Virus record (IMG/VR): IMGVR_UViG_3300026097_000876
Span: 1 to 64,000 of that record
Direction: 5' to 3' (one strand)
From: a virus
DNA: 64,000 bases
The position numbers were made by a program, and so were the translations under genes. Positions 94 through 60,885 of this stretch are shown here, in pieces; within the stretch, counting starts at the first letter, position 1; each line of letters opens with the position of its first letter. The notes beneath the pieces were generated by a model that saw nothing but the letters and a program-made list of their open reading frames with translations, was not told the DNA's origin and searched no databases.

Positions 94-97
94 AATA

Positions 98-3461: not shown

Positions 3462-4079
3462 TTAACGTGCTTCTGCCACTTTATCAGCAAGACCATATTC
3501 TACAGCTTCTTCTGCTGTTAAGAATGTATCAAACTTCATTGTTTCAAATAGCTCTTCGTAGCCTTTGCCTGCTGTGTTGTGTTTTACATACAGTTCGGTT
3601 AGGCGTTTGTTAATCTTTTTACTTTCTTCAAATGCACGTTTTGCATCTTCAAACTCAAGTTCTTGTACATGTACGCTACCGCTTGTGCCACGTGTACCTG
3701 AACTTACACGGTGAATCATTGTGCGGCTTTCTGGCAACACTACACGCTTGCCTGCTGTACCTGCTTGTGCTAGGAAACTACCCATTGAACATGCTTGGCC
3801 CATTACAATAGTTTGCACATCGCATTTGATATACTGCATTGTGTCGTAGATAGCAAGTCCTGCTGTTACAGCACCGCCTGGGCTATTAATATACAGATTA
3901 ATTGTTTTCTCTGGATTTTGTGATTCAAGAAAAAGTAACTGTGCTACAATTACATTGGCCATGTGATCTTCAACTGGACCGTTTAACATCACAATACGAT
4001 CCTTTAGCAACCGACTATAAATGTCGTATGCTCGTTCGCCTTTTGCTTCTTTTTCAACCACCATTGGAATTAGTGCCAT
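3462..4079 (-). CDS. clpP: ATP-dependent Clp protease proteolytic subunit
   Basis: A full-length 205-residue ClpP, the serine peptidase that forms two stacked seven-fold rings and degrades proteins delivered by ClpX or ClpA. The nucleophile lies in [13 protein letters not shown], the catalytic histidine in [10 protein letters not shown], and the C-terminal Asp region near [17 protein letters not shown]. No Clp ATPase is in the window, so it would dock on the host's. The window also encodes the adaptor ClpS (20325-20636). Together these suggest the phage redirects host proteolysis. ClpP also occurs in cyanophages. Confidence 0.93.
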
Positions 4080-18999: not shown

Positions 19000-19007
19000 T
19001 ATTTATG
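19000..19007 (-). promoter_or_regulatory. T4-type late promoter (CATAAATA)
   Basis: Leftward CATAAATA, 25 bases before the start at 18975. It overlaps the 3' end of the bilin reductase gene. Confidence 0.65.
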
Positions 19008-19686
19008 CCAGTTTAGGAAATAACATATCTGTGCAGAACTTATCAACATCGTCTTCGGCAAGACCTAAACTTTTCATAACCCTAGGAGTATGAGGATTTT
19101 GTTGCTGATTATGACAGTAATAATTTTGTCCGGCTGTAACTAATTCTTGAATTCCATATCCATTAAACTCACCAACTTGGTCAAGATACTCGTGTAAGTT
19201 AGAAAGTGCAATGTCAATAATAACACCAGCTTCGTCTTCTTTCACATTGCTTGCTGCAATCATACTAGGCGTAAAGATATTAGTAGCCCATTCAGGTAGT
19301 TGTCGTTTTTTCTCTGGAATAAATTCTTTTACAGTTTCTTCGTACCATTGAACCATAGGATGGTCTAGTTCGCAACTGGGCGAAAAGTCGTGAAATGCAC
19401 CTGTCATTTTAGATTTACCTGAAATTACATCAAATCCATATATTGGTGCTGTGTTGTGAAGTTGTGGGAAGACACAAACATGCATCATCCACAATCCTTT
19501 TGTGTCTCGAGCATCAACTACATCAATGTGAGCTCTTCGAACATCTTCATTTTCCCAAACTCTATTAATCCAACCACCATCGGGTTGATTGAAGTGTGCC
19601 ATTCCTGGTTCTTCAACTTCAACCCCATGATGATCAAACGCTTGAATGATTTGATCTTTACAATCAATAAGTTGATCCCAGATCAT
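19003..19686 (-). CDS. pcyX: Ferredoxin-dependent bilin reductase, PcyX-like
   Basis: 227 residues of the ferredoxin-dependent bilin reductase family, which reduces biliverdin IX-alpha to phycobilins. The core LWMMHVCVFP and APIYGFDVISG, then GAFHDFSP, is diagnostic. H69 matches the active-site His and D86 the active-site Asp of PcyA. D55 (AHIDVVD) lies where PcyA has its catalytic Glu76, by eye. PcyX, known from uncultured ocean viruses, makes phycoerythrobilin. The ATG is one base past the heme oxygenase stop, so the two are co-translated. Confidence 0.88.
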   Translation of the reverse strand: MIWDQLIDCKDQIIQAFDHHGVEVEEPGMAHFNQPDGGWINRVWENEDVRRAHIDVVDARDTKGLWMMHVCVFPQLHNTAPIYGFDVISGKSKMTGAFHDFSPSCELDHPMVQWYEETVKEFIPEKKRQLPEWATNIFTPSMIAASNVKEDEAGVIIDIALSNLHEYLDQVGEFNGYGIQELVTAGQNYYCHNQQQNPHTPRVMKSLGLAEDDVDKFCTDMLFPKLA

Positions 19687-19687: not shown

Positions 19688-20278
19688 CTAGGAATATTCT
19701 AAATCGTTTAATTGCTCAAAAACTTTAACGGCAAATTCAAATGCTTTATTAGCTTCGTCTGCCATTCCGTCATGTGTGCGTCTGCGGATCATTTCCTTCA
19801 TTTCTTCAACCGAATGAGTCATTTCTTCAAATGCATACATTTTCCCAGAACCTGGAACTTTGCTTCTAATCATCTGTCCGCCTGACAAATCACCCATGTG
19901 TCTTACATAAATGTGTGCAAATAATTTGTCTGGATCATGCTGACACTGTGTGACAATATGTGATCTATACTCATGTACAGCATCAACTTCTGTTGGAGGA
20001 TTTTCTGGATCCCCACCTAACTCTACAAAGTCGGCCATAATATCGTCTGCCTGAATCAACCCGTCTAGTGGAAGATCATCATCTGGCATACTTAAATCTT
20101 GTGGGCCAAAACAACCCATACTTAATGCAACATCTTCTAGAACATCATACATTAACCACATGTTCCATAAGTATGTTTTATATTCTTCAGTGCTCATATT
20201 ACCAGACATCATTTTTCTTGCAAATTCCTGACGTTCTGCGTTCTGATGAGCTACTTGTGTTAAACTTGCTAAACTCAT
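19688..20278 (-). CDS. ho1: Heme oxygenase (biliverdin-producing)
   Basis: 196 residues, the usual length of bacterial/cyanophage HO1. It opens heme to biliverdin, CO and Fe2+ using ferredoxin electrons. The proximal heme ligand is H11 (VAHQNAERQ) and the distal helix is HIYVRHMGDLSGGQ with D130. It is followed after one base by the bilin reductase. A strong RBS (GAGGAGTAAACA) and a perfect TATAAATA late promoter lie upstream, so the pair is probably expressed late. Confidence 0.94.
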   Translation of the reverse strand: MSLASLTQVAHQNAERQEFARKMMSGNMSTEEYKTYLWNMWLMYDVLEDVALSMGCFGPQDLSMPDDDLPLDGLIQADDIMADFVELGGDPENPPTEVDAVHEYRSHIVTQCQHDPDKLFAHIYVRHMGDLSGGQMIRSKVPGSGKMYAFEEMTHSVEEMKEMIRRRTHDGMADEANKAFEFAVKVFEQLNDLEYS

Positions 20279-20324: not shown

Positions 20325-20636
20325 CTATTCTTTTTCAATTGCCACTTGCAACGGAAACCCATTTTCCCTAGATAATTTAGTTGCTTCTAAAGATTTTTGT
20401 TCTGCTAATTCATAATTATAAAGACCAACTACAGAACTTCCGTTTTCATGAATTTCCATAGTAATGTTTCTTGCAACAATTTCCGAGTGTTTGAAAATTT
20501 CTATTAAAATTTCAACTACAAAATCCATCGGCGTAACGTCGTCGTTGAGCATAAGAACCTTGTACTTTCCTGGTTCAAGCATGATTTCTTTAGTAGATTC
20601 GTCTATGTTAATTTGTGTATCTAATTCTACGCTCAT
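20325..20636 (-). CDS. clpS: ClpS protease adaptor
   Basis: 103 residues, full length. ClpS binds N-terminal Leu, Phe, Tyr or Trp of N-degron substrates and hands them to ClpAP. The conserved MLNDDVTPMDFVV loop holds the Asp residues that bind the substrate N-terminus, and EIHENGSSVVGLYNYELAEQK carries the second conserved helix. RBS TAGGAGAAACAA. Together with phage ClpP this could steer host ClpA. Confidence 0.93.
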   Translation of the reverse strand: MSVELDTQINIDESTKEIMLEPGKYKVLMLNDDVTPMDFVVEILIEIFKHSEIVARNITMEIHENGSSVVGLYNYELAEQKSLEATKLSRENGFPLQVAIEKE

Positions 20637-20689: not shown

Positions 20690-21154
20690 TTACTCGCTGT
20701 CAATAGCGTCTTGCACATGACCGTTATAGTCTGTGATTTCAATACGCTTAGGCTGTAGTTCTTCTGGAACTTCACGCTTTAGATGTACGTTAAGCATGCC
20801 GTTTTCAAGGCCTGCACTTACTACTTCTACGTGATCAGCAAGTGTAAACTCTCTACGGAAATTGCGTTCGCCAATTCCTTTGTGCAGATAGTTTACGTTT
20901 TCACCCCCTTTAGGAGATGTACCTTCTACACGCAAGATATTCTTGTCCTTAGTAATGTCTAAGTTATCCATACCGAAGCCAGCGACTGCGAGAGTAATCA
21001 TAAACTCATCTTCGTCGATCTGTGCAATGTTGTATGGAGGATATCCTGTGCTCTGACTATTAGCAAATGATCTGTCTAGTTCATCAAATAGTCTGTCAAA
21101 GCCAATAGTAGCTCTGTGTAGGTTAGGTAGGTCTAGAGTTGTTAGTCTTGTCAT
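20690..21154 (-). CDS. hsp20: Small heat-shock protein (Hsp20/IbpA type)
   Basis: 154 residues with the alpha-crystallin domain: YNIAQIDEDEFMITLAVAGF, then GIGERNFRREFTLADHVEV and the closing GLENGMLNVHLKREVPEE. An ATP-independent holdase. Hsp20 is a hallmark core gene of T4-like marine phages, where it may guard capsid assembly. It has its own late promoter and terminator. Confidence 0.93.
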   Translation of the reverse strand: MTRLTTLDLPNLHRATIGFDRLFDELDRSFANSQSTGYPPYNIAQIDEDEFMITLAVAGFGMDNLDITKDKNILRVEGTSPKGGENVNYLHKGIGERNFRREFTLADHVEVVSAGLENGMLNVHLKREVPEELQPKRIEITDYNGHVQDAIDSE

Positions 21155-21224: not shown

Positions 21225-22385
21225 TTAGTAACCAACAGTTGATTTTTCGTACACAGCATTATGTGTCTGTGTACATCTAACAAATGTAGTACATTTGCTA
21301 AGATTCTTTAGTTTTACTGCGCCAGCGTAAGTACAAGTACTACGCAACCCACCAAGAATACCTTGAACAGTATTACCCACTGTTCCTCGGTAAGGCACAA
21401 GAACTTCTCTTCCTTCACTGCTTCTATACTCCTTAAGTCCGCCAAAGTGTTTGTCATTGGCTGCTGTTGAGCTCATGCCATAGAACTGTACAAACTTCTT
21501 TTCTTCAATAACACGACGACCTTCATCCCAGTCAGTTCCGCTCATCTTAGGAACAGGACGTAGCTCATCTGTGGCATAGCGTTTGACAATTACTTCTCCA
21601 CCACCTTCATCGTGTCCGGCAAGCATGCCGCCCAGCATTACAAAGTCAGCGCCAGCGGCAAATGCTTTGGCTACGTCACCAGGGCAAGTGCAACCCCCAT
21701 CAGCAATAATATGGCCGCCGAGTCCGTGAGCCGCATCGGCACACTCAATAACAGCCGAGAGTTGAGGATAACCAACACCTGTCTGAATGCGAGTAGTACA
21801 CACACTACCAGGACCAATCCCAACTTTAACAATATCTGCTCCTGCAAGAATTAACTCCTCTGTCATTTCACCAGTAACTACATTACCGGCGATGATTACA
21901 ATATTTGGATACGTCTTACGCATCTCTGACACAAAGTCACGAAAGCGATTTGAATATCCATTTGCTACATCAATGCAAACATATTTTAGATTGCCGTCTG
22001 CACGATCATATACGTCTTTAAACTTGTTCCAGTCACTGTCATTAATACCAATGCTCATTGCTACATGATTAGTGCGTAGATATTCGTCTGTGTCAAAAAA
22101 GTCTACAAGCTCGTCTGCCGTGTATGTTTTTACAAGACAGGTAAACATACCCAAACGTGCAAGTTCATCTGCCATTTCAAACGTACCAACACCGTCCATA
22201 TTGGCCGCCATAATAGGAATTCCTTTATAGTGAGCATTTAAAACATTGTCAGGAAATTCTATTTCGGAGTTACGAAATGTATATTCACGCACCAACTCAA
22301 CTTCTTTACGACTACCAAGTGTGCTACGTTTAGGACGTATCAGCACATCTTTGTAATCTAGTTTGCTTTCGGTTTCGATTCTCAT
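21225..22385 (-). CDS. guaC: GMP reductase
   Basis: 386 residues of the IMPDH/GMPR family without CBS domains. It converts GMP to IMP and ammonia with NADPH. The catalytic Cys is in [13 protein letters not shown]. The GMPR-specific C-terminal half ([40 protein letters not shown]) separates it from IMP dehydrogenase. It could rebalance purines from degraded host nucleic acid towards IMP and AMP. ATGA overlap with the upstream 2OG oxygenase. Confidence 0.92.
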
Positions 22386-48973: not shown

Positions 48974-49730
48974 CCGGTTTTCCATCGTTGTTGTATTCGT
49001 AAAACAGTATTTCCCAGCGTCCGTCGGTGTGTTCTAACAGAGCTGAACAGCTCTCGACCCAGTCGCCATCGTTCATGTATTCTATGCCGTTTATTTCTTT
49101 TATCTCTGCTGTGTGAATATGTCCACAGATAGCACCATCGTAGCCTTTCTTATAACAATAGTCTGCGACGTGCTCTTCGAATGAGTTGATGTAGTTCACA
49201 GCACCCTTAGTTTTTGATTTGAGAAACTTGCTTAGGCTCCAGTAAGGCATGCCAATCCAGCCGCGAACTGTGTTGAAGTGTGTGTTAAACCATATCAGTG
49301 TGTTGTATGCCGCATCGCCCAAATGCATTATCCACTTCTTGTTTGGCATCATCAAGCCATCAAACATGTCGCCATGAACAACCAAATACTTCTTGCCGTT
49401 CACCGCACGATAATCATAACGGTTTAGTATTCGAATGCGTCCTATGTCGATGTCGTATGACAGGAACTTGCGGATAACTTCATCGTGATTGCCCAGTATG
49501 TAATACACTTTGGTATCACGCTTGGCTGCTGTGAATATGCGTCTAATAACATTGGCGTGGCTTTGTGGGAAATACCAGCGTTTCCTCAGTCGCCAGCCGT
49601 CTATGATATCGCCAACTAGGAATAAGTTATCACAGGTGTTTTCTTTTAGAAAGGCACAAAGAGCATCGGCTTGGCAACCACGAGTGCCTAAATGTATGTC
49701 TGAGATGAAGATGCTCTTATAATGAGCCAT
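48933..49730 (-). CDS. LpxH-like metallophosphoesterase (UDP-2,3-diacylglucosamine hydrolase type)
   Basis: 265 residues. Metallophosphatase motifs: ISDIHLGT, VGDIIDGW, GNHDE, VVHGDMFD and CGHIHTAE, in the arrangement of LpxH-type enzymes that cut UDP-diacylglucosamine in lipid A synthesis. Paired with a glycosyltransferase, it suggests remodelling of the host outer membrane. A perfect late promoter lies 23 bases upstream. Confidence 0.82.
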   Translation of the reverse strand: MAHYKSIFISDIHLGTRGCQADALCAFLKENTCDNLFLVGDIIDGWRLRKRWYFPQSHANVIRRIFTAAKRDTKVYYILGNHDEVIRKFLSYDIDIGRIRILNRYDYRAVNGKKYLVVHGDMFDGLMMPNKKWIMHLGDAAYNTLIWFNTHFNTVRGWIGMPYWSLSKFLKSKTKGAVNYINSFEEHVADYCYKKGYDGAICGHIHTAEIKEINGIEYMNDGDWVESCSALLEHTDGRWEILFYEYNNDGKPDDIEEQDNHSHTL

Positions 49731-49741
49731 AGCGTGTGTCC

Positions 49742-49767
49742 TTCTGCTTACGTATTTATAAGCAGAA
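49742..49767. promoter_or_regulatory. Late promoter inside a 9-bp inverted repeat
   Basis: A leftward TATAAATA (49753-49760) lies between TTCTGCTTA (49742-49750) and TAAGCAGAA (49758-49766). The dyad around a late promoter is unusual and might bind a regulator. Confidence 0.65.
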
Positions 49768-49790
49768 AGACTACACCTTTGTTACAATGA

Positions 49791-49952
49791 TTAGAAACCG
49801 TCGGCTAATGTCCACTTGGGATTAAAAGACTTGCCTTTCGCTTTACGGTCTAAGATTTTGGCTAGTTCTAGCTCACGCAGTTTGCGTATCATCTTGCCGT
49901 CGTGGGAAAGAGAAGCCGAATACATTTCTTTTAATAGTTTTGATTGTTTCAT
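49791..49952 (-). CDS. Small basic protein (53 residues)
   Basis: ATG at 49952, TAA at 49791, RBS AAAGGAG. Helical and basic: KMIRKLRELELAKILDRKAK. Follows no other gene on its strand. The divergent region to the right holds the DUF1127 locus. Function unknown. Confidence 0.6.
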   Translation of the reverse strand: MKQSKLLKEMYSASLSHDGKMIRKLRELELAKILDRKAKGKSFNPKWTLADGF

Positions 49953-50028
49953 GTGCTTTCTCCTTTCTTACTACATATATAGTATATATGCAAATTGTAC
50001 GACTTTTAAATGGTTAGTTTATTCTTTG

Positions 50029-50036
50029 TATAAATA
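50029..50036 (+). promoter_or_regulatory. T4-type late promoter (TATAAATA)
   Basis: Perfect rightward box, about 87 bases before the ATG at 50123. The leader can form ACTTG/CAAGT. Confidence 0.7.
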
Positions 50037-50122
50037 CCGAGGCAAGATACGTTCTCGACCTGACAACTTGGTAAGACAAGTCGCGCTCGCGATAAAAAGC
50101 ATCATTACGATAGGAGACTAAA

Positions 50123-50293
50123 ATGATCAAGATGGCAGAAATGCTTGGTCGTGTAATGATGACTGCGGTCAATCAGCCACGCACCAAGAACAAAGAAGAA
50201 GACCTTTGGAGATACGCAGAAATAGAATATAAGAAAGATGCACTCTTTGCTTATAACAGTTTGATGTCAAGTCGAAAGCCAACAAAACATTAA
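50123..50293 (+). CDS. Small protein (56 residues), DUF1127-like neighbourhood
   Basis: ATG at 50123 after TAGGAGACTAAA, TAA at 50291. Helical with RYAEIEYKKDALFAYNSLM. Lies upstream of the DUF1127 operon with its own late promoter and terminator. It is a small, basic helical protein like its neighbours. Function unknown. Confidence 0.62.
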   Translation: MIKMAEMLGRVMMTAVNQPRTKNKEEDLWRYAEIEYKKDALFAYNSLMSSRKPTKH

Positions 50294-50299
50294 ACAAGA

Positions 50300-50326
50300 A
50301 AGCATCCCTTAGGGGGTGCTTTTTTA
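50300..50326 (+). terminator. Rho-independent terminator
   Basis: AGCATCCC-TTAG-GGGGTGCT followed by TTTTT, 8 bases after the 56-residue gene. Confidence 0.87.
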
Positions 50327-50419
50327 TGCCTTAGAAATTCTAATGACACCCATGCAAAAATAACATGTACGGTATGCACAAATAACAGTTGATTTTTGTC
50401 AACCTTTAAACTATAGTAG

Positions 50420-50427
50420 TATAAATA
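50420..50427 (+). promoter_or_regulatory. T4-type late promoter (TATAAATA) of the DUF1127 operon
   Basis: Perfect rightward box, about 139 bases before the AT of the first ATG. It leaves an unusually long leader. Confidence 0.72.
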
Positions 50428-50433
50428 AACATG

Positions 50434-50565
50434 TTGCACAGCAACAAAGCGTCTTCAGCTTGTAAAAAATGAAGGGCATGTCCTATGCCATAAAAAGGTG
50501 ACGCCGGAAGAGACCGGGGTACGTGACGAACCTTAGAAGCACACACACATACAAAGGAAAATAAA
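50434..50565 (+). ncRNA. Structured 5' leader RNA of the DUF1127 operon
   Basis: The leader can fold as a three-way junction: GCGTC (50449-50453) with GACGC (50500-50504) encloses TTCA/TGAA (50454-50457 with 50470-50473) and GGCAT/ATGCC (50475-50479 with 50485-50489). A CCGG-AAGAGA-CCGG hairpin (50504-50517) follows. Such density before a coding operon suggests a regulatory RNA or riboswitch-like element. No known family matched by eye. Confidence 0.55.
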
Positions 50566-50814
50566 ATGACTAATATAACAATGGCGGCTGACACAATCGG
50601 CTTACCAGTTATTGCAAACTGGTTCAAAAAACTAAACGCAAAAATGGCTCAGAGAGCAAAAATCCAAACTACAATCAATCAACTATCAGCACTAACCGAT
50701 CGCGAACTACGTGATTTAGGTATTAGCCGCGGTGACATCTATTCAGTTGCACACGGTACAGCCGATATCAAAGAAATTCGTGATGCGAATGCAAATTTGA
50801 AGGGGTGGGTGTAA
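50566..50814 (+). CDS. DUF1127 (YjiS-like) small protein
   Basis: 82 residues. The DUF1127 core is clear: NQLSALTDRELRDLGISRGDI. Such 45-80-residue proteins are abundant in Alphaproteobacteria, and in some species they act in phosphate or carbon-stress regulation and RNA turnover. Rare in phages. First gene of a TAATG-coupled three-gene operon with a structured leader. Confidence 0.88.
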   Translation: MTNITMAADTIGLPVIANWFKKLNAKMAQRAKIQTTINQLSALTDRELRDLGISRGDIYSVAHGTADIKEIRDANANLKGWV

Positions 50815-51044
50815 TGGAAGTATCACTAGACGCAAAACGCAATGGTGTTGCATTCAGACGTGCAACTTTTAAAAACCCACTACCAAGTATCCTAAGAGGC
50901 ACAGGCAAAGTATTGCTTAGTGTGCTTATGGGCATTGTCGCATTTGGTGAGTCAGCAGGTAGAGCAAGAGCGGCGGCGGAATTGTCACGTCAGGGCTATC
51001 ACGAAGAAGCAAGAAACTTGATGCTGCGCAAGGATGAAGTATAA
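50814..51044 (+). CDS. Small protein coupled to DUF1127
   Basis: 76 residues with a possible amphipathic or membrane-touching segment (ILRGTGKVLLSVLMGIVAFGESAG) and AAAELSRQGYHEEARNLMLR, similar in layout to the end of the next protein (LRALGHYKEAQRI). Overlaps both neighbours as TAATG. Confidence 0.68.
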   Translation: MEVSLDAKRNGVAFRRATFKNPLPSILRGTGKVLLSVLMGIVAFGESAGRARAAAELSRQGYHEEARNLMLRKDEV

Positions 51045-51172
51045 TGTGGGAACGTTTTATCAAAGCAATGGAATATCGTGCCTACTGTAAAACTATTCTG
51101 CAACTACGTGCGCTTGGACACTACAAAGAAGCACAGCGTATAGCAGATTATAAACACGCATTATATTCTTAA
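51044..51172 (+). CDS. Small DUF1127-related protein (42 residues)
   Basis: ATG at 51044 inside the previous stop, TAA at 51170. Sequence MWERFIKAMEYRAYCKTILQ, then LRALGHYKEAQRIADYK. It resembles the C-terminal helix shared by DUF1127-associated proteins. Followed by a terminator. Confidence 0.65.
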   Translation: MWERFIKAMEYRAYCKTILQLRALGHYKEAQRIADYKHALYS

Positions 51173-51178
51173 AAACAA

Positions 51179-51211
51179 AAAAGCGCCAAAAATATAATAG
51201 GCGCTTTTTTC
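51179..51211 (+). terminator. Rho-independent terminator of the DUF1127 operon
   Basis: AAGCGCC (51181-51187) and GGCGCTT (51200-51206), then TTTT. Confidence 0.88.
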
Positions 51212-51240
51212 TTGACATAAATAAAAGACTACGTTATATT
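51212..51240 (+). promoter_or_regulatory. Sigma70-type promoter overlapping a late box
   Basis: TTGACA (51212-51217), 17-base spacer, TATATT (51235-51240). CATAAATA (51216-51223) overlaps it, so the gene could be read both early and late. Confidence 0.78.
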
Positions 51241-51284
51241 AATAATGTAGTACACACTACACACAGACACATAGGAGAAATACA

Positions 51285-51611
51285 ATGTCAAAAGTAGAAA
51301 CAACCTACGGGGAAACTATCCTCAAGCAAACGCAAGAACTTGCAGACATGTTCAAGCAGGCAATGCCAAAAGTAAGCACAAATAAAAACGGTTACGAAAT
51401 CCGCACACAAGTATTAGAAATGGCCAAGGACAATGTCTGGAGCGATTATCATGCTAAGTTTGCAGGATGGGAACAGACTGTAACACGTGATCCAGAAACT
51501 GGAGAAGTAGTACAAACTGTTACACTTCCAGAGATTCCTGGAGTGGATCAAGTACTAGAAGCCGCGGACAAGTTCTACGACTTCGTTAACGGTACTACCA
51601 ATAAGAAATAA
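51285..51611 (+). CDS. Conserved phage protein of unknown function
   Basis: 108 residues. Helical N-terminus (ETILKQTQELADMFKQAM), then NGYEIRTQVLEMAKDNVWSD and PEIPGVDQVLEAADKFYDFV, a pattern I recall from marine T4-like phages. RBS AGGAGAAATACA. Own dual-type promoter and a hairpin downstream suggest strong expression. Confidence 0.65.
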   Translation: MSKVETTYGETILKQTQELADMFKQAMPKVSTNKNGYEIRTQVLEMAKDNVWSDYHAKFAGWEQTVTRDPETGEVVQTVTLPEIPGVDQVLEAADKFYDFVNGTTNKK

Positions 51612-51685
51612 ATAATATTACAAAGAAGTTAATATAACAATTTCACGGACATAGTCCATACAATAATAAGTACATTACACCAAGC

Positions 51686-51725
51686 AAGCCCTCGTTCTAG
51701 TATCACTAGTTCGGGGGCTTAATCT
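51686..51725. terminator. Long hairpin between convergent genes
   Basis: AAGCCCTCGTTCTAG and CTAGTTCGGGGGCTT pair over 15 positions with two mismatches (51686-51720). A T-rich stretch follows on the plus strand. Likely shared terminator. Confidence 0.7.
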
Positions 51726-51726
51726 T

Positions 51727-53805
51727 TTATAGTGCTGTTTGATTGATGTCGACTGCTACAGCCGATGTTGATGGACCAAATCCTGTTGCATCTTCTGCTT
51801 CAAATCTCAATCCTGTGTCAGTGAATGCATAGGCAACTTCTACATAATCGTCTGCGTCAAGAGTCAATGTAAATGCATAACTCAATGTAGTATAGATAAA
51901 GTTGTCAGTGGTTGATGTGCGTTTCATTGAACGAGGCACGTCTGTGCCATTCTTTCTTAGCCACACATGGAAAGTTTCGTCGCCTGTTTCGCCTGCTGAA
52001 TAACACTGGCATTGCACATTAATCGCATACAATCCACTTTGATCCACTACCATTCTACTTGCGGGTGTGCCTAGGCTGATACCACTTGTTTCTACGTAGG
52101 TGTCGTCTAATGCAACTACGTAGGCTGTGTTGGTGCTGTCGGCTGTGACGTTTGTAGTTCTTGCAAAGCGGCCATAGTTCATCTTCTGCTCAATGGTAGG
52201 ACGAACAAATATCTCACCTTCTGTGGCATCTACGTGTAGCACTGCCGCAACTGGAACAACATTGTTAGGTGCTGTGGGTTTGACATTAGTCAACGCACCT
52301 GCTGTTGTAGGGCTTACATACAGTATGTTGCCCACTGCCCAACTCTCGCCACCGCCTGTAGTGTCGATTCCACGAACTTTACCAAACACTGTGATGCGTC
52401 CGCTTTCGCCATCGCTTAATGTGTGAGTGGCAATGCCCAAACCGTATAGGCTTGGAAATGCTCCATCTGCTTCAAACGGTGCTACTTCTAGTCTGTAGCC
52501 ATCAGTGTCGTCTGCACCGTCAAATCTAACCACAGCACCGTTGGCTATTTCACTGCCTGTGTTGTTGATTACATAAGCATACTGTTCTTGTCCAACCTGC
52601 TGAACAACGCCGTCTGCGTGATGTATGTTCAGTGTGCCATCTTCTGCACTCCAGCATACTGTGCCTTCATCAGTGTGATCGTCAACGTGTGAGGTATCAA
52701 AGGTAATAAAGGTTGCGTTAGATACGCCTGCGTCTGTTCTATTTAGAGTAATACCCGTTTCGTCTACGGTAACAACAGTGTCAGTGGCAATCGTCCCATT
52801 AGGCACTGTGTAAAACTCTAGTCTACTGCCTCGTGCTGTGGCTGTATAGTTTTCGTTGGCGACGATTCTTAGTCCGCCTACGCCTAGTCCGCCGAAGCCA
52901 TTGCTGGCCCAACCTGCGGCTGTGACATTGCCCAGTATGTCATCGTCTTGAACTGCGGTAGTAGAAGCATTGGTTCCTCTACCTGTTCTAAATACCAGTT
53001 CACCACCTGTGATGCTTCTGTCTGTGTCTATGCCATAGGTGTCTATCACCAATATGGCTGTTCTGTCATCTCTGCCTGTGAACTGTGCCACACTGCCAGT
53101 GACTACTGCTGGGGTTTTAGTTAGTCCTGCACCGTTGATAGTGACATTTAACGGTGCTGATAATCCCAGGTCCTCTGAGTTTGATATGTTCAGTGTAGTA
53201 GTCGAAGTGTCTCCATCTGCGTTGACGGCAAACACTGGATCTCTATCACCTATGCTACCGTTGGTAGGAAATACATTAAACTCGCCTACAACACTCACAC
53301 TGCCTGTGCCGTTGGCACGAATGACAATAGGCTCGTTTACATTAGTGCTTGATAGTACTGCGGAGGTAGTTGAGTCTACACCTGGCTCTATTGTGGCACT
53401 GAAGTTGCCGAATGTAAAGTCTAGTCCTTCTGAATCAATAACCAGTTGGTTGTTTGCGTTTAGTGTAACGCCGGGACCTAATCTAATACCACCTAAGGCA
53501 TCGGTTGTGGCAGGGTCAAGTGTGAGATTGTTGCTTCCGTCAAATGTGATTCCGTCACCGTCTTTTACTGCGAGAATGCCTAAACTATCAACTTCTAAAC
53601 CTTGTCCTGGCTGAACTCGTCCTGGGCTAGATGCTGTTGCTAGTGCTGTGGAACTGAATGGTGTGCCTCCTGGAGTAACGCCATCTGATATTCTTAAACC
53701 TGTGATACCAGCATCGTCATAAAACAATCTACCAGCGTGACCTACATAGTCATTAACTGTAACTGCTGCTGAGTTTCTACTTAGGAAGAAGTCATAGACT
53801 GCCAT
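51727..53805 (-). CDS. Tail fibre-like virion protein
   Basis: 692 residues, beta-rich, almost no Lys. The start DFFLSRNSAAVTVNDYVGHAG and DGVTPGGTP resembles fibre attachment domains. Long Asn/Thr/Gly-rich repeats follow (for example DGDGITFDGSNNLTLDPATTDALGG-like blocks). The C-terminal domain (GLYAINVQCQCYSAG, TFHVWLRKNGTDVPRS) looks like a C1q/TNF-type receptor-binding head. Last of three genes behind a perfect late promoter. Confidence 0.82.
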   Translation of the reverse strand: MAVYDFFLSRNSAAVTVNDYVGHAGRLFYDDAGITGLRISDGVTPGGTPFSSTALATASSPGRVQPGQGLEVDSLGILAVKDGDGITFDGSNNLTLDPATTDALGGIRLGPGVTLNANNQLVIDSEGLDFTFGNFSATIEPGVDSTTSAVLSSTNVNEPIVIRANGTGSVSVVGEFNVFPTNGSIGDRDPVFAVNADGDTSTTTLNISNSEDLGLSAPLNVTINGAGLTKTPAVVTGSVAQFTGRDDRTAILVIDTYGIDTDRSITGGELVFRTGRGTNASTTAVQDDDILGNVTAAGWASNGFGGLGVGGLRIVANENYTATARGSRLEFYTVPNGTIATDTVVTVDETGITLNRTDAGVSNATFITFDTSHVDDHTDEGTVCWSAEDGTLNIHHADGVVQQVGQEQYAYVINNTGSEIANGAVVRFDGADDTDGYRLEVAPFEADGAFPSLYGLGIATHTLSDGESGRITVFGKVRGIDTTGGGESWAVGNILYVSPTTAGALTNVKPTAPNNVVPVAAVLHVDATEGEIFVRPTIEQKMNYGRFARTTNVTADSTNTAYVVALDDTYVETSGISLGTPASRMVVDQSGLYAINVQCQCYSAGETGDETFHVWLRKNGTDVPRSMKRTSTTDNFIYTTLSYAFTLTLDADDYVEVAYAFTDTGLRFEAEDATGFGPSTSAVAVDINQTAL

Positions 53806-53808
53806 TGA

Positions 53809-54099
53809 TTATTCCAGTGGGTCGTCGTCGCTGGCAATGTGAACCACCGCTGGGTTTACACCTGCCATTTTTCTAATATCGTTAAGCTCATTGTCGTCAG
53901 AACCACATGCTGACTCGTCATCGTATTGTGAATCGACACCAACACCTTTTTTCAATAGTTCTAGTTTCTGTTGATTAGGTGTCATCATTGTGGGTTCGTC
54001 GCTTGGTTCTGCATTGTTTGGTGATAAGACAGCAGCATCTGGACTATCAATTGTGTCTAATTTATCTGCTAATTGTCTTAATAATTCTGCTACTGTCAT
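53809..54099 (-). CDS. Small acidic protein of the fibre operon
   Basis: 96 residues, Asp/Ser-rich (YDDESACGSDDNELND), helical N-terminus MTVAELLRQLADKLD. Between two virion-like genes, 3 bases from the fibre start. Possibly a fibre chaperone or attachment factor. Confidence 0.55.
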   Translation of the reverse strand: MTVAELLRQLADKLDTIDSPDAAVLSPNNAEPSDEPTMMTPNQQKLELLKKGVGVDSQYDDESACGSDDNELNDIRKMAGVNPAVVHIASDDDPLE

Positions 54100-54122
54100 A
54101 ATATAAAGATCCTTTTGAATAT

Positions 54123-54371
54123 TTAGTCGTCTGCGTAGTCTATTTCGCCATTGTCCGGAAACTCTGGCGGCACTGAGCTATCTTCTAGTCCTTGCCTGTA
54201 ATCTTGAACATAGTTTGCCCAAGCTAGTTTAGCGGCGGCTCTTGCTGCTTTTGTTGCCACGCCATTGCCTGTGTCAGTACTGTCTGTGGCGTGAGCAATA
54301 CCGTTAGGATCGTGTGGATCTGTAGGACGGGTTAGTGCTAGTTGATTTGCACCTAGTGTGTCTAATGCCAT
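54123..54371 (-). CDS. Small protein, first of the fibre operon
   Basis: 82 residues from the ATG at 54371 (RBS AGGAG). Contains [21 protein letters not shown]. The upstream extension would cross the promoter. Function unknown. Confidence 0.58.
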
Positions 54372-54390
54372 GATAAAAACTCCTGTAATG

Positions 54391-54398
54391 TATTTATA
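54391..54398 (-). promoter_or_regulatory. T4-type late promoter (TATAAATA) of the fibre operon
   Basis: Perfect leftward box 20 bases before the ATG at 54371. The same bases read rightward contain TATAAT (54395-54400) 11 bases before the ALA synthase ATG. Confidence 0.75.
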
Positions 54399-54410
54399 AT
54401 AAGTATACAC

Positions 54411-55613
54411 ATGCTAGATATAAAACCGTTTCAAGATATTATAGATCAACTAAAGGGTCAAGGCAACTATCGTGTTTTCAACGACATTGTTAGAGAACGT
54501 GGTAGTTTTCCAGAAGCTATTTGGTATGGTCCATACAATATCAAGAACATAGTTAATTGGTGTTCAAATGATTATCTAGGAATGGGACAACACAAGGTTG
54601 TTATTGACAGTATGTATACAGCCCTTGATCAAACAGGAAGCGGATCAGGCGGCACACGTAACATTGGCGGCACTAGTCATTACCACGTAGCTCTAGAACA
54701 CGAATTAGCAAAGTTACACGCTAAATCAGGTGCTCTATTGTATACCAGTGCCTACGTTGCCAATGAGTGGACACTCATCGCTCTAAGCAAGATCATTCCC
54801 GACATTGTGTTCCTTTCAGACTCAAAGAATCATGCTTCTTTGATACAAGGGATCAAACACAGTGGTGCTGACAAGATGATTTGGCAGCACAATGATATGA
54901 ACGATTTAGAAAAGAAATTACAGGAAGTTTCCGCACAGAACAAAGTCGCCTGCATTGTGTTCGAGTCCGTGTATAGCATGGACGGCGATGTCTCTCCTAT
55001 TTCTTGTGTCTGCGACCTAGCTCAACAATATGGAGCAATGACCTACATTGATGAAGTCCACGCAGTAGGCTTGTACGGGAGTACTGGTGCAGGATATTTA
55101 GAGAAACTGGGTATACAGGATCGGGTAGACATCATCAATGGAACGTTGGGCAAGGCTTTTGGAGTACAAGGCGGCTACATTGCAGGTGAAAGGACTGTCA
55201 TAGACGCAATCCGAAGTGTAGCCAGTGGATTTATATTCACTACCAGTATGAGTCCTGTGATTTGTGCTGGTGCTTTGGCCTCTATAAAGTATCTAAAAGA
55301 TCACAACGAACTAAGAGAGCAACAACAAACGCAGGTACAAAAACTTAAAAACAATTTAATACACGAAGGTATTGAAATACATGCAAGCGCCTGTACTCAT
55401 ATTGTGCCTGTTATGGTACGTGACCCTGTGCGTTGTAAAACTATCAGCGACGAACTATTAAACGAATATGGAATTTATTTACAACCGATTGGCTGGCCTA
55501 CGGTTGCAAAAGGAGAGGAGAGATTGCGCATTGCTCCTACACCCTTTCACACAGACGCTATGATAAGCGATCTAGTAGATGCGCTAGTAAAGGTTTTTAA
55601 AAATGTCAATTAA
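54411..55613 (+). CDS. hemA: 5-aminolevulinate synthase
   Basis: 400 residues, full length. Condenses glycine with succinyl-CoA to ALA, the first step of heme synthesis by the C4 route of Alphaproteobacteria. It is PLP-dependent: [27 protein letters not shown], and K248 in NGTLGKAFG, which binds PLP. The N-terminus [19 protein letters not shown] separates it from KBL and BioF. No convincing RBS precedes the ATG. TATAAT at 54395 suggests a very short leader. Overlaps the YbaN-like gene. Confidence 0.94.
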
Positions 55614-56019
55614 AAAAATGTTATGGTATGTATTGGGCATGGGCTCGTTAGGTATGGCCTATGTAGGATTTGTAGTTCCAGGCATACCATTTTCGATCTT
55701 CCTTGTGTTTGCAGCCTATTGTTTTGCAAAGTCGAGCAAGAAGATGCACGATTGGATATACAATCACAAACACTTTGGTCCGTTCCTTACTAATTGGACA
55801 GAGAAGAAAGTATTTCCTACCAAGATGAAATACATGATGGTTGCTGTAATGAGTTCAAGTGCAGCCTTCCTATGGTTTAGCACCGGCAATATCAAAGCAA
55901 CACTGTGGAGCGCAGGCTTTATGGCGCTGGTCGCTCTATGGGCTTGGAAATTTCCCGGAAGTGTTGCTGAATATGAAAAGCGCAAGAAACTAGGCAAGCG
56001 CATCGGTTGGATACGCTAG
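55603..56019 (+). CDS. DUF454/YbaN-family inner-membrane protein
   Basis: 138 residues with three to four transmembrane helices. Conserved [24 protein letters not shown] and the [14 protein letters not shown] loop define the family. Function unknown. In bacteria it is often near heme or iron genes, and here it overlaps hemA by 11 bases. Confidence 0.85.
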
Positions 56020-56525
56020 AGGTAAGCTGTCCAGCTAGGATGTGCTATCTGCATAGACAACTGTTTGCGTTTGTTTACTAGATCATAGTAGTCAGGCGCA
56101 TAAGGAGCACGTCTTGGTTTCATATTGGTTTTGTTGCCTTTGCGACTGTTGCACGGTCCGCATGCCGCTACAATATTAGTCCACGACGTCTTGCCGCCTT
56201 TGCTTACAGGAGTCACGTGATCAAGTGTTAGATTACTCCTACCATAGGGTGTCCCGCAATACTGACAGGTATATATATCACGTATAAAAAGATTTTGTTT
56301 AGAAAAACGTGGCCTTGCACGGCGCTTCATCATTTCTTTAAGCATGATTACCGCTGGTACACGAGTCTCCCAGGATGGTGAACTTACTATCCAATCGTCA
56401 TACCATTCAAGCACAGTGCACTTGTCTAACCACATATAGGTGACCGCTTCCTTCCACTGTACAGCACTTAGCGGAAGATACGATACTGGTTGGGCATCAG
56501 CGTTCAAAACTAAAACGTCAGACAC
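56016..56525 (-). CDS. HNH endonuclease
   Basis: 169 residues from a GTG start (GGAGAAGTAAAAA upstream). Zinc ribbons CQYC and CGPC with the HNH core LTLDHVTPVSKGG...NIVAACGPCN. The long N-terminal part (VLVLNADAQPVSYLPLSAVQW) matches the chromosomal bacterial HNH family rather than intron homing enzymes. Late promoter upstream. Convergent with the YbaN-like gene, overlapping by 4 bases. Confidence 0.86.
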   Translation of the reverse strand: MSDVLVLNADAQPVSYLPLSAVQWKEAVTYMWLDKCTVLEWYDDWIVSSPSWETRVPAVIMLKEMMKRRARPRFSKQNLFIRDIYTCQYCGTPYGRSNLTLDHVTPVSKGGKTSWTNIVAACGPCNSRKGNKTNMKPRRAPYAPDYYDLVNKRKQLSMQIAHPSWTAYL

Positions 56526-56567
56526 TTTTTACTTCTCCAATGTGTCAAAAACTCTTGTTTACTAGTA

Positions 56568-56575
56568 TATTTATA
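56568..56575 (-). promoter_or_regulatory. T4-type late promoter (TATAAATA) of the HNH gene
   Basis: Perfect leftward box 43 bases before the GTG. Confidence 0.68.
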
Positions 56576-56614
56576 GATTTTTTTGACTGTTAATAATATT
56601 GTAATACTTTACAG

Positions 56615-57181
56615 TCACACCACAGTGTTGTCAATTAACAACTGATCCATCATTTGATCACTGGCCAACTGAATACCCATCTTCCACTGATCTTCTTCAT
56701 CTTCGTTGTAAAAAATTTCGTGATTGGGCTCTACCAACAACCAAGCCTTGTGTTGATACAGTTCTTCCTGAAGCTGTTTGACTCCCCAAGTGCTCATTCC
56801 GGCTATCAGTCTCCAACAGGCAGGTAAGTTGCCATCTACCATCTTGTCCAGCATTAGTTCGTCTGAACTAATACAATTGCCGTGGGTCACAGGAATAGTG
56901 TTTGTGCTGTTCCATTCATCAGTGTGCAGGAGTATTAGGCTCTGTTCACCCACTGGACCGCCTCTGTACACACTGCCAGTGGCACCTGTGTTGTAGATGC
57001 CACGTAGGCCCTGAAGCCTGTCAATGGTGAGATAACTGGGCTTGTTGAGAATCAATCCAAACACTATGAGATCTGTTTGTTCATAAAGATAAACCACAGT
57101 CTGTGCAAAAGTTGGATCTCGCATGGTGCCAGGGCGAGCAATTAATAGCTTGCCTTTGAACTTGGTTTCAACCTTGGTCAT
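56615..57181 (-). CDS. YqgE/AlgH-family protein
   Basis: 188 residues. Starts like the family (GKLLIARPGTMRDPTFAQTVVYL), with FGLILNKP, YRGGPVGEQSL and WGVKQLQEEL following. A cellular protein of poorly known role. Unusual in a phage. One-base overlap with the gene upstream. Confidence 0.87.
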   Translation of the reverse strand: MTKVETKFKGKLLIARPGTMRDPTFAQTVVYLYEQTDLIVFGLILNKPSYLTIDRLQGLRGIYNTGATGSVYRGGPVGEQSLILLHTDEWNSTNTIPVTHGNCISSDELMLDKMVDGNLPACWRLIAGMSTWGVKQLQEELYQHKAWLLVEPNHEIFYNEDEEDQWKMGIQLASDQMMDQLLIDNTVV

Positions 57182-57426
57182 TAGCTGTAGTCCGGAAGAG
57201 GTCCACCATAGGGTTTACCTTTGATGTGTTTGCCTCCCACAGATACTCTGCGTTTGCCGATCTTGTGGCTCTTTTTGCCCGAACGCTTGCGCAGGCCTTG
57301 ACTTCTACAACTGGCCAAAGCACTAGCACCTAGTTTTGAATTAGGTTTACTGCTCTTGCACAGTTTTTTAGAAGCCTGCCATTCTTCAAGATCATCTGCC
57401 GAGGTTAAAAGTTCATCTATTCGCAT
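57181..57426 (-). CDS. Small basic protein with capsid-targeting-like N-terminus
   Basis: 81 residues from MRIDELLTSADDLEE. Basic C-terminal half (GLRKRSGKKSHKIGKRRV). GATAAATA at 57435 lies only 9 bases before the ATG, so any late transcript would be nearly leaderless. Function unknown. Confidence 0.55.
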   Translation of the reverse strand: MRIDELLTSADDLEEWQASKKLCKSSKPNSKLGASALASCRSQGLRKRSGKKSHKIGKRRVSVGGKHIKGKPYGGPLPDYS

Positions 57427-57427
57427 A

Positions 57428-57646
57428 CTAACGATATTTATCCGCGGCACAGCTTTGATCACTGTGAACAGGTCGAGGACTAAGACTGAACGTAAGCGCA
57501 CTGCGTGTGCCTTCCGTCGTACCGATCACAATTTCGCCTGACTTTTCAAAGAATTCAATCTTGGTGATTTTGGCTGGCTTCTTTGATTTGCCCACAAGAA
57601 TTTCTTGTCCTAATTCTAAACTTACGTCAATTGCTCTTAGTGTCAT
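57428..57646 (-). CDS. Small SH3-like protein of unknown function
   Basis: 72 residues: LELGQEILVGKSKKPAKITKIEFF, beta-rich. Downstream gene begins after one base. A perfect 14-bp palindrome lies 20 bases before its ATG. Confidence 0.55.
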   Translation of the reverse strand: MTLRAIDVSLELGQEILVGKSKKPAKITKIEFFEKSGEIVIGTTEGTRSALTFSLSPRPVHSDQSCAADKYR

Positions 57647-57666
57647 AGTATTCTCTCCTGTATAAA

Positions 57667-57680
57667 GTGAACTAGTTCAC
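57667..57680. promoter_or_regulatory. 14-bp palindrome GTGAACTAGTTCAC
   Basis: Perfect palindrome in the divergent region between 57646 (leftward) and 57726 (rightward). Probable operator. Confidence 0.65.
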
Positions 57681-57725
57681 ACAAGTATTTAACTCTGTGC
57701 GTGTCAACGGTTGGTAAATATTAGT

Positions 57726-57908
57726 ATGAGATATCAATTACTAGACGACCAAATAGGAAATTTTTTGATTGTGGACACCTGGAAACAACAGGTGATAGGC
57801 AAAGGAACCAAACTGAAGGTGAGTGCTCGCATGTGTCAAAAGCTCAATCGCAGGTTGGGCCACGACAGAGCACGTGAACAATTTTGCCAATACTGGTTGA
57901 CAACTTGA
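57726..57908 (+). CDS. Small protein of unknown function
   Basis: 60 residues from the ATG at 57726. MRYQLLDDQIGNFLIVDTW then a basic helix (ARMCQKLNRRLGHDRAREQF). GGTAAATA ends 5 bases before the ATG. A GTG start at 57711 is possible. Confidence 0.55.
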   Translation: MRYQLLDDQIGNFLIVDTWKQQVIGKGTKLKVSARMCQKLNRRLGHDRAREQFCQYWLTT

Positions 57909-57925
57909 TCAATCACGTGTAGTAT
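57897..57925 (+). promoter_or_regulatory. Sigma70-type promoter of the small-gene operon
   Basis: TTGACA (57897-57902), 17-base spacer, TAGTAT (57920-57925). Confidence 0.72.
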
Positions 57926-57957
57926 TAACAGTGTAGAAATTAGAACAGGCACTGACT

Positions 57958-58152
57958 ATGATCAAAATACTAGCGTTAGCCATCACACTCACAGGCTGTG
58001 CAAACACAGCTGAATGGGCGCGAGGCACTAGCTCACACGATCCTCACACAGGTGATTGGATCTTTATTCAGAATGAGCCATTAGCAGCTCAACGACAGGC
58101 TTATCGCGAACAAGGTTGGCGTTGGGGCGATGAAAAACCACCACAGTACTAG
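57958..58152 (+). CDS. Small lipoprotein
   Basis: 64 residues with lipobox TLTGC after a short hydrophobic signal (IKILALAI). The mature part is polar with WIFIQNEPLAAQRQAYREQG. First of six tightly packed rightward small genes. Confidence 0.65.
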   Translation: MIKILALAITLTGCANTAEWARGTSSHDPHTGDWIFIQNEPLAAQRQAYREQGWRWGDEKPPQY

Positions 58153-58160
58153 GAACACAC

Positions 58161-58442
58161 ATGCAGATACAAGATCTAACACCAGGCAACAGCTATGCTT
58201 GCCGCTTTCGAACACAAACCACCTTGGACGATCAAGGACAACCCGCTCCCAATCTCCGCAGGCCCACACAAGGCACAGGTGAATACACAGGCTTGGGTGT
58301 GATCATGCAGAGAGACACAGCACAACAGTTGGTTAGGTTAAGAGATGTAGCCAGCGACGAAGTTTTTGTGGTTGCATGGCAAGACTGTTGGGACGTGGAC
58401 ACTGTGGAATGGAAGGAGCCGTTTGATGCGGGAACTGATTGA
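58161..58442 (+). CDS. Small protein of unknown function
   Basis: 93 residues, likely SH3-like (DLTPGNSYACRF, GVIMQRDTAQQLVRLRDV, VFVVAWQDCW). Overlaps the next gene by 17 bases. Confidence 0.6.
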   Translation: MQIQDLTPGNSYACRFRTQTTLDDQGQPAPNLRRPTQGTGEYTGLGVIMQRDTAQQLVRLRDVASDEVFVVAWQDCWDVDTVEWKEPFDAGTD

Positions 58443-58587
58443 ATTTTTAGAAGATCTCCACAGCCTGCCACACAGCGAAGCACTGGAAGATCTCATAAAC
58501 AAATATACACAACAACTGGAACACATGGAGACAGCATATGAACAAGAGTTTTTTGCGAGCACATCCCCTCACGACCACACTGAGTGA
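58426..58587 (+). CDS. Small acidic helical protein (53 residues)
   Basis: ATG at 58426 after GGAAGGAGCC. MRELIEFLEDLHSLPHSEAL then a coiled helix. Overlaps both neighbours in other frames. The good RBS supports it. Confidence 0.58.
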   Translation: MRELIEFLEDLHSLPHSEALEDLINKYTQQLEHMETAYEQEFFASTSPHDHTE

Positions 58588-58729
58588 TCAAGACCGTGAG
58601 CGCATAATTCAAAAGCTGCGCACGGACACCGTCCCCACCACAGAAGAATTGGCTGTGTTGGAAGACCTCGTGTTTGACGGTATAGCAGAAAAACTCAGCA
58701 CCCATCCTCCCGCGGACGAGCTACAATGA
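58538..58729 (+). CDS. Small protein of unknown function
   Basis: 63 residues with TLSDQDRERIIQKLRTDT and VLEDLVFDGIAEKL, helical. It overlaps the previous gene by 50 bases, unusually far, and the next by 4. Confidence 0.55.
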   Translation: MNKSFLRAHPLTTTLSDQDRERIIQKLRTDTVPTTEELAVLEDLVFDGIAEKLSTHPPADELQ

Positions 58730-59004
58730 GCAAGTACACACTGGACGATGACACACGAGAGCTGTTAGAGATCATACTCAACTGGAGTGCACACTACACC
58801 GAACTTCAAGCACACGAAGAAACACAACAGGACATGGCCGCACTGATCCAAGAAACAGCACAAGCATTTGGCATTCCCTACAAAACTGTGCATGTGGAAG
58901 AAATAGAAAACCCAGACGGCACTGTAAAACTGGACGTGACTATCTCTGACAGCGACACAGAGGAAGAAGATTTCCCAGATCCCCCAGAGGATACCCTACA
59001 CTAG
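58726..59004 (+). CDS. Acidic protein of unknown function
   Basis: 92 residues, very acidic C-terminus (SDSDTEEEDFPDPPED). ATGA overlap with the previous gene. It ends the operon before the late promoter at 59036. Confidence 0.58.
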   Translation: MSKYTLDDDTRELLEIILNWSAHYTELQAHEETQQDMAALIQETAQAFGIPYKTVHVEEIENPDGTVKLDVTISDSDTEEEDFPDPPEDTLH

Positions 59005-59035
59005 TCTTTTGTACAACTGTTAACAAAACTTAAAA

Positions 59036-59043
59036 TATAAATA
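59036..59043 (+). promoter_or_regulatory. T4-type late promoter (TATAAATA)
   Basis: Perfect rightward box 28 bases before the ATG at 59072, the spacing expected for a late virion gene. Confidence 0.8.
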
Positions 59044-59071
59044 CGTTTAATAAAGTTTAGGAGAGTGCAAA

Positions 59072-60382
59072 ATGGCCTACGGTGGTGTAAAAGGATCTGC
59101 TAATCTACAATCAGATGTTGTTAAAACAGTTGGACAAGTTTTTGCCCTTGGGTCTGCTGTTGTCGAAGTAAGCGTATGCAATAGAAACAGTGACACAACT
59201 GCTCGTATAAAAATGGCGGTTACAAACGCTACAGATCAATTTGACGACGATGCACATTTCATAGAATACGATGCAGAGCTAGGCCCTAGAGGAGTTCTGC
59301 AAAGAACAGGAATTAATATATCTGAAGAACAGTATGTGACTGTGTCAAGTGACACAGACAATGTAACGGCAATGGTATATGGGTTTGAACACGGAGTAGC
59401 AGGTGAGCCTACATATAATACCTTTGCGCTGGATGCAGACAGTTACGACGAAGGCGATACTGTAACAGTAAGCCTAACAACATCCAAGATAGCACCAGGT
59501 ACCACAGTGACCTACAACATAACCGCACCAGACGCAGCTGATGCTTCCGTTACAAGTGGAACTATCACAGTGGGTACGGATCGTGCAGGTTCGGACTCAT
59601 TTACACTAACAAACGACAACACCACCGAAGGCTCAGAAACACTTACGGTTAGACTAGCTTCTACAGACAGTGCCGGTAATGCCACAGGATCTCTGTCGGA
59701 TTCAGCAACTATCAATGATACTAGTTTAGATCCAAGCTATGATACATTCGAGTTAGATGAGACTAGTTACGACGAAGGGGATACTGTAACAGTTGATCTA
59801 ACAACAACTAGTATAGCAGAAAACACAACAGTAACCTATGATATAACCGGAGTCCAATCAAACGATGTAAGCAAGACAAGTGGTACTATTACAATAGGTG
59901 CTGACGGCACAGGCACAGATACATTTACAACTACTACCGGCGGCGGATTAGAAGGCACAGAAACAATCACAGTTACATTAAGAGCTACGGATTCTAGTGG
60001 CAATGCTACAGGATCACTATCTGATTCAGCAACACTTGTTGAACCAGTAACTGCTAGTGTTACAGCAGATAGTGATACTGTTACCGCGGGCAATAGTCTA
60101 GACTTTAGAATAAATCCCAACAACTATCCAACTGGATATCAAGCCACATACAGAGTAGTAAATGGAACCACTAACAGCTCGGACTTCAGTGGCGGCAGTG
60201 GTTTCTATAATACTGGAACTCAATCTGGCATATTCAACACAGGCTTCGGTGGATCTCTCGACATAACAATTAACATAGCAGATGACGCAGATGCTACTAA
60301 CGAAACATTCCAAGTAGAAGTGTTAAAACCAGACAACACTCGTGCAGGTATATCTGGCATAGTTACTATCGTACCATCATAA
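59072..60382 (+). CDS. Virion surface protein with Calx-beta/Ig-like repeats
   Basis: 436 residues. An N-terminal base domain (about 1-110) resembles fibre or decoration attachment domains. Three Calx-beta-like units follow (YDEGDTVTVSLTT, EGSETLTVRLASTDS, YDEGDTVTVDLTT, EGTETITVTLRATDS), two of them close copies, then a Gly/Asn-rich end. Ig-like folds on virions bind carbohydrates. Monocistronic, late. Confidence 0.82.
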   Translation: MAYGGVKGSANLQSDVVKTVGQVFALGSAVVEVSVCNRNSDTTARIKMAVTNATDQFDDDAHFIEYDAELGPRGVLQRTGINISEEQYVTVSSDTDNVTAMVYGFEHGVAGEPTYNTFALDADSYDEGDTVTVSLTTSKIAPGTTVTYNITAPDAADASVTSGTITVGTDRAGSDSFTLTNDNTTEGSETLTVRLASTDSAGNATGSLSDSATINDTSLDPSYDTFELDETSYDEGDTVTVDLTTTSIAENTTVTYDITGVQSNDVSKTSGTITIGADGTGTDTFTTTTGGGLEGTETITVTLRATDSSGNATGSLSDSATLVEPVTASVTADSDTVTAGNSLDFRINPNNYPTGYQATYRVVNGTTNSSDFSGGSGFYNTGTQSGIFNTGFGGSLDITINIADDADATNETFQVEVLKPDNTRAGISGIVTIVPS

Positions 60383-60439
60383 CAGTCCAACAAGCGCGAA
60401 GCGTCCAAAAAAAATTTCACACTCAGTGTAAATATCTAT

Positions 60440-60661: not shown

Positions 60662-60664
60662 GAG

Positions 60665-60734: not shown

Positions 60735-60885
60735 TGCTAGCTATACACAAAACAAAATTTCCTTGAGGCCCCGCTGCTAGTATCACGGTATCACACACAC
60801 TCTATACAGTGTAGATGCTTGCCGTAGAAAGACTGTGTGTCTAGGTTGATTTTATAGTGTGACTAGGTTGAATCTAGCGTGGGAA

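Follow-up and report, generated by a model that had tools for sequence, protein, structure and literature searches.

What does a phage gain from making 5-aminolevulinate (ALA) when the same genome also encodes an enzyme that degrades heme? The question is raised by positions 1 to 64,000 of the IMG/VR virus record IMGVR_UViG_3300026097_000876 (this whole stretch of 64,000 nucleotides is called the window below, and the full record G000), in which alaS, a gene for 5-aminolevulinate synthase (AlaS), occurs together with genes for a heme oxygenase (HO) and a PcyX-type bilin reductase. An earlier note on this DNA regarded a viral ALA synthase as hardly described, a view that the literature has overtaken, as viral alaS (valaS) was published and shown to be active in 2024 (Wegner et al. 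2024, Nat Commun 15:8783; PMC11480375) and is already tracked in a 2026 estuary study (PMC13390420). Because viral AlaS is already published, the window alaS is a further case that adds breadth and no new principle. Added here are the jumbo-phage setting (set against the main text of the 2024 study), the pairing of alaS with a DUF454 gene, and a conserved GuaC-Hsp20-ClpS-HO-PcyX block. The reading that we lean towards, with some reserve, is that a clade of aquatic T4-like jumbo phages carries an active, feedback-free AlaS that is maintained by selection, and that its ALA would be made into heme by the host and then into bilins.

Identity and phage location of the ALA synthase

The alaS open reading frame is intact from ATG to stop and encodes 400 amino acids. 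Against TIGR01821, the NCBIfam equivalog profile for EC 2.3.1.37, the protein scores 566.7 bits, well above the cut-off of 338.55, and the closest solved structures by sequence in a PDB search are the ALA synthases 7x98 (Rhodopseudomonas palustris) and 2bwn (Rhodobacter capsulatus). An AlphaFold model of moderate confidence (predicted local distance difference test score, pLDDT, 75; residues 23-88 poor) was used in a fold search that ranks ALA synthases first, and the same two enzymes show full-length homology, the same active site, and ~46-51% identity. When the pyridoxal phosphate (PLP) lysine and the residues binding glycine and succinyl-CoA were mapped through an alignment to 2bwn, all were present in the window protein (R21, N53, T82, N84, S136, H141, D214, H217, K248, T364, and R373, with K248 as the PLP lysine), and each is invariant in 78/78 aligned phage sequences. 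Together, these results bear out the earlier description of the gene as a complete ALA synthase of the C4 route. PHROGs holds no AlaS family, and PADLOC gave no match for AlaS or for DUF454.

Other members of the alpha-oxoamine synthase superfamily were considered and rejected, including KBL and BioF, kinship with which the earlier note had named as fatal to its claim. The KBL model TIGR01822 reaches 278 bits, below its own cut-off of 493, and the BioF model TIGR00858 reaches 316 bits, below its own cut-off of 426; the serine palmitoyltransferase model in NCBIfam likewise scores under its cut-off. That the KBL and BioF models score at all is expected within one superfamily, but only the ALA synthase model passes its cut-off, the substrate residues of ALA synthase are present, and KBL-type sequences fall outside every AlaS in the tree described below.

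The same caution applies to the DNA itself, as host sequence or an assembly chimera at this end of the window would also have undone the claim. G000 is filed as viral, comprises 261,806 bases of a T4-like jumbo phage, and carries a T4-type terminase, sheath, tail tube, UvsX, and ribonucleotide reductase; the nearest isolates by terminase are PA5oct-like Pseudomonas jumbo phages (54.6%). Contig L002, from a separate dataset, matches window positions 44411-64000 at 99.995% (one mismatch in 19,590 bases) and covers both flanks of alaS, and several of the flanking genes recur near alaS in at least 40 other viral loci. In addition, two large relatives, the viral record G019 (236,751 bases) and a contig of 335,231 bases, each with a terminase 77% identical to that of G000, both hold AlaS, DUF454, HO, PcyX, ClpS, Hsp20, and GuaC. 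Host DNA and chimerism are thereby ruled out, and the alaS end of the window (54411-55613) is phage DNA. Taking protein and locus together, we consider it highly improbable that the enzyme is KBL, BioF, or another alpha-oxoamine synthase, or that the region is host-derived or chimeric.

The 335,231-base contig (PBPT01000016.1; L092, L348-L364) is filed under a Neomarinimicrobiota metagenome-assembled genome (MAG) and is itself a jumbo phage, with a terminase 77% and a capsid 83% identical to those of the window phage; the viral contig L022 encodes an identical AlaS. Phage-type AlaS is also found on contigs binned with Flavobacteriales and Rhodobacteraceae (L093, L094, L098, and L152).

Regulation is where the window protein departs from its characterized homologs. 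At the position of the heme-regulatory His342 of R. capsulatus ALA synthase it has Arg341, and a histidine occurs there in 0/78 phage sequences; a cysteine within the last 15 residues is present in 13/78 phage AlaS proteins and absent from the window AlaS, in which it differs from the two bacterial enzymes. Because these heme-regulatory residues are missing, we infer that the window AlaS is freed from heme feedback inhibition, as was also inferred for valaS (PMC11480375). It is probably catalytically active as well, by analogy with the relative from phage CB_2, for which complementation of a 5-ALA auxotroph in E. coli and measured ALA synthesis have been reported (PMC11480375). The median pairwise dN/dS (the ratio of nonsynonymous to synonymous substitution rates) among phage alaS copies is 0.096, a rough figure given 76 non-independent pairs and several dS values near saturation, yet phage alaS is clearly kept under purifying selection.

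Descent of AlaS and its genomic partners

A scan of IMG/VR for AlaS relatives, of which the best 80 loci were retained (69-100% identity), and a set of cellular AlaS sequences from a pattern-limited and hence incomplete scan were placed in a quick maximum-likelihood tree. All phage AlaS sequences, including those on MAG-binned contigs, form one group (98 in the Shimodaira-Hasegawa-like approximate likelihood ratio test, SH-aLRT), whose sister is a pair of Pelagibacteraceae (SAR11) AlaS sequences (SH-aLRT 99) that are ~60% identical to the window protein. The deeper order of the tree is unreliable because of long outgroup branches. The published valaS tree likewise separates a phage group from bacterial AlaS, with Pelagibacteraceae nearest (PMC11480375), and the best explanation of these sequence relationships is that the ancestor of phage alaS was an alphaproteobacterial AlaS, SAR11-like or related to it.

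The window enzyme and the published valaS share their phage encoding, a grouping apart from bacterial AlaS with Pelagibacteraceae nearest, and the loss of heme-regulatory residues. They also share the presence of hemO and pcyA/X in the genome, as valaS has been found alone or with these genes, including in "broken cassettes" that fit the layout of the window (PMC11480375). In contrast to valaS as the main text describes it, where the marine contigs were assigned to pelagiphage myoviruses and neither DUF454 nor jumbo phages are mentioned, the window AlaS belongs to a 262-kb PA5oct-like jumbo phage, its gene overlaps a DUF454 gene, and 34.7 kb separate alaS from HO-PcyX, which is encoded on the opposite strand. 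The case takes the question of viral AlaS to jumbo phages with large genomes in which gene order is conserved, and the DUF454 pairing and the ClpS-Hsp20-HO-PcyX block are two leads that make phage use of ALA and bilins easier to test.

The most regular neighbor of phage alaS is the gene for a DUF454 (YbaN-like) membrane protein, detected in 74/85 phage alaS loci searched and on the same strand every time. It usually overlaps alaS by 4-14 nt or starts within 30 nt; in 4/85 loci it starts ~2 kb before the end of alaS and thus upstream. Of the 11 loci lacking it, five run out within ~140 nt of alaS. No DUF454 gene was found near cellular AlaS in the retrieved flanks (up to 6 kb), and the five genome-collection loci that do have one (L092, L093, L094, L098, and L152) all group with phage AlaS. 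DUF454 has been assigned no function so far; it is induced by iron starvation in one bacterium, and co-occurs with heme oxygenase near type XI secretion system (T11SS) genes. The model of the window protein is helical (mean pLDDT 89), and its fold search returned no significant match.

That HO and PcyX accompany AlaS in one phage, as the earlier note had it, is upheld by Pfam and PDB matches (Table 1). The best PDB match of the window PcyX is PcyX_EBK42635 (5owg; 280 bits, full-length), compared with 57 bits for PcyA, and it retains Asp55 in the alignment, the PcyX-specific catalytic residue (PMC11480375). The PcyX-like sequence and Asp55 therefore make phycoerythrobilin (PEB) its predicted product. 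The pelagiphage isolate Mosig EXVC030M (MT647606) resembles the window phage in that HO adjoins PcyX, which is 55% identical, and differs from it in size (141 kb) and in its terminase (just 33% identical). One Mosig protein annotated as "putative ferrochelatase" (QOI69021.1; L322:16357-17127) looks by eye closer to a 2-oxoglutarate- and Fe(II)-dependent oxygenase.

HO and PcyX belong to a block with the conserved order GuaC-Hsp20-ClpS-HO-PcyX among the PcyX loci (counts in Table 1). ClpS, Hsp20, and ClpP occur in this one phage, and in its relatives ClpS and Hsp20 are nearly always beside HO-PcyX. The T4 late-promoter consensus is TATAAATA, of which ATAAATA is a part. In G000, ATAAATA is the top enriched 7-mer upstream of genes (32/245, ~15-fold, against 11 for the best of its letter permutations) and precedes the tail sheath, the tail tube, and other structural genes; the first promoter pattern tried (TATAANTA) showed no enrichment. 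Since a late-promoter-like GTATAAATAC lies ~45 nt upstream of HO, HO-PcyX is likely expressed late. ATAAATA also stands ahead of alaS in 15/47 representative phages.

Table 1. Positions in the window of alaS, its partner gene, and genes of heme turnover and proteolysis
Feature	Position	Strand	Basis
alaS, complete 5-aminolevulinate synthase, 400 aa	54411..55613	+	TIGR01821; PDB 7x98, 2bwn; conserved active site; dN/dS
DUF454 (YbaN-like) membrane protein	55603..56019	+	PF04304, 94.7 bits; 11-nt overlap with alaS end
Heme oxygenase (HO)	19688..20278	-	PF01126, 70.9 bits; PDB heme oxygenases
PcyX-type ferredoxin-dependent bilin reductase	19003..19686	-	PF05996, 61.8 bits; PDB 5owg; Asp55
ClpS adaptor, just upstream of HO	20325..20636	-	PF02617; 79/80 PcyX loci
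Hsp20 small heat-shock protein	20690..21154	-	PF00011; 76/80 PcyX loci
GMP reductase (GuaC)	21225..22385	-	NF003470, 522.8 bits (cut-off 397); 67/80 PcyX loci
ClpP-like protease subunit	3462..4079	-	PF00574; NF001368, 261.7 bits (cut-off 249)

Possible roles of viral ALA

The earlier note called for a search for viral contigs that carry the ALA synthase gene with those for HO and PcyX, and such contigs exist. PcyX was found in 7/9 alaS contigs whose upstream sequence spans 40 kb or more and in 10/15 where it spans 30 kb or more, some of the contigs being near-duplicates, and the reverse search found AlaS in 5/7 PcyX contigs that extend 35 kb or more upstream. Besides the window phage, 11 contigs of the alaS-anchored set hold both; in these, alaS and PcyX are 24-57 kb apart and on opposite strands in 9. 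Where AlaS is more diverged, in two contigs, it lies only 1.6 kb from the PcyX gene. A control built on terminase relatives gave PcyX in 0/20 contigs and, in the contigs tested, no AlaS score above cut-off, and is weak, as many of these contigs may end short of the region. The isolated phages in the collection included no AlaS record. Given shared phage descent, we take the co-occurrence as stable co-retention and not as repeated co-acquisition.

In the scheme that we favor, AlaS would make ALA from glycine and succinyl-CoA in the infected cell without bacterial heme feedback, host HemB to HemH would convert the viral ALA to heme, and phage HO and PcyX would process some of this heme to biliverdin and then PEB, with release of iron and carbon monoxide. 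The suggestion that the middle steps are left to the host agrees with our searches for HemB, HemC, HemE, and HemH, which found none of the four in G000 or in nine relatives, some of these ten records being fragments (HemD, HemF/N, and HemG were outside these searches). A supply of the bilin branch by AlaS is plausible, and viral ALA may flow into bilins. Several observations weigh against this scheme. The alaS gene lies far from HO-PcyX, is encoded on the opposite strand, and has DUF454 as its partner instead, so alaS, HO, and PcyX need not be co-expressed; no exact late-promoter-like ATAAATA precedes the window alaS, whereas HO has one. PcyX is absent from some alaS contigs long enough to hold it, and the co-occurrence of AlaS and PcyX within one phage lineage is partly a matter of shared descent.

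On the other hand, AlaS may sustain the infected cell's supply of heme for respiratory cytochromes, or of other tetrapyrroles such as B12, with HO and PcyX as a separate trait that has its own use. We regard this as possible, though clearly less probable than a route into bilins. A supply of heme and other tetrapyrroles is the role preferred by the 2024 authors, and valaS also occurs without hemO and pcyX (PMC11480375); the physical separation of the window alaS from HO-PcyX and its travelling with DUF454 point the same way. However, the lineage often has AlaS with HO and PcyX, retained despite rearrangement, and the making of a costly precursor beside a heme-degrading enzyme argues for a link between them. 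An alternative centered on iron, in which AlaS and HO drive a heme turnover that releases usable iron with bilin as a by-product, seems unlikely to us. A role in iron has previously been discussed for HO, and the iron-starvation response of DUF454, its association with heme oxygenase near T11SS genes, and a rubrerythrin in the window are consistent with it, but one iron is spent for each new heme, so that making heme yields no net iron, and PcyX would be superfluous.

A bolder reading draws on proteolysis. In plants, the adaptor ClpS1 supplies the Clp protease with one of the key enzymes of ALA synthesis, glutamyl-tRNA reductase (GluTR), and one bacterial GluTR is likewise a Clp substrate; because of these actions on GluTR elsewhere, a proteolytic take-over of host ALA synthesis via the phage ClpS is conceivable. 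In such a two-part tetrapyrrole program of the jumbo-phage lineage, one part would be an alaS-DUF454 unit, with DUF454 aiding AlaS through transport or the handling of heme or ALA, and the other the GuaC-Hsp20-ClpS-HO-PcyX block, from which ClpS with phage or host ClpP would remove the regulated ALA-forming enzyme of the host, which the feedback-free viral AlaS would replace. We hold the full program to be unlikely.

Further genes of the phage

Beyond these genes, the window has a gene for an SdhB-like succinate dehydrogenase iron-sulfur subunit (11902-12609, minus strand), which adjoins those for the rubrerythrin (12620-13114) and a peroxiredoxin (11102-11662). Elsewhere in the record, L090:13368-16842 (record positions 237368-240842, minus strand) resembles, by eye, a complete polyamine-type ABC (ATP-binding cassette) transporter with an ATPase, two membrane proteins, and a binding protein, of which profiles confirmed only the ATPase, as an ABC ATPase. 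Three proteins resemble flavin-dependent halogenases by eye (L084:18298-19806 and record positions 123806-125284 and 137744-139210), and the one of the three that was tested had no NCBIfam match. Window positions 60400-63600 contain short open reading frames only, for which the lineage's other phages offer almost no relatives, and are possibly non-coding or very fast-evolving. The record opens with ten tRNA genes within 2.4 kb (window 18-2382, minus strand).
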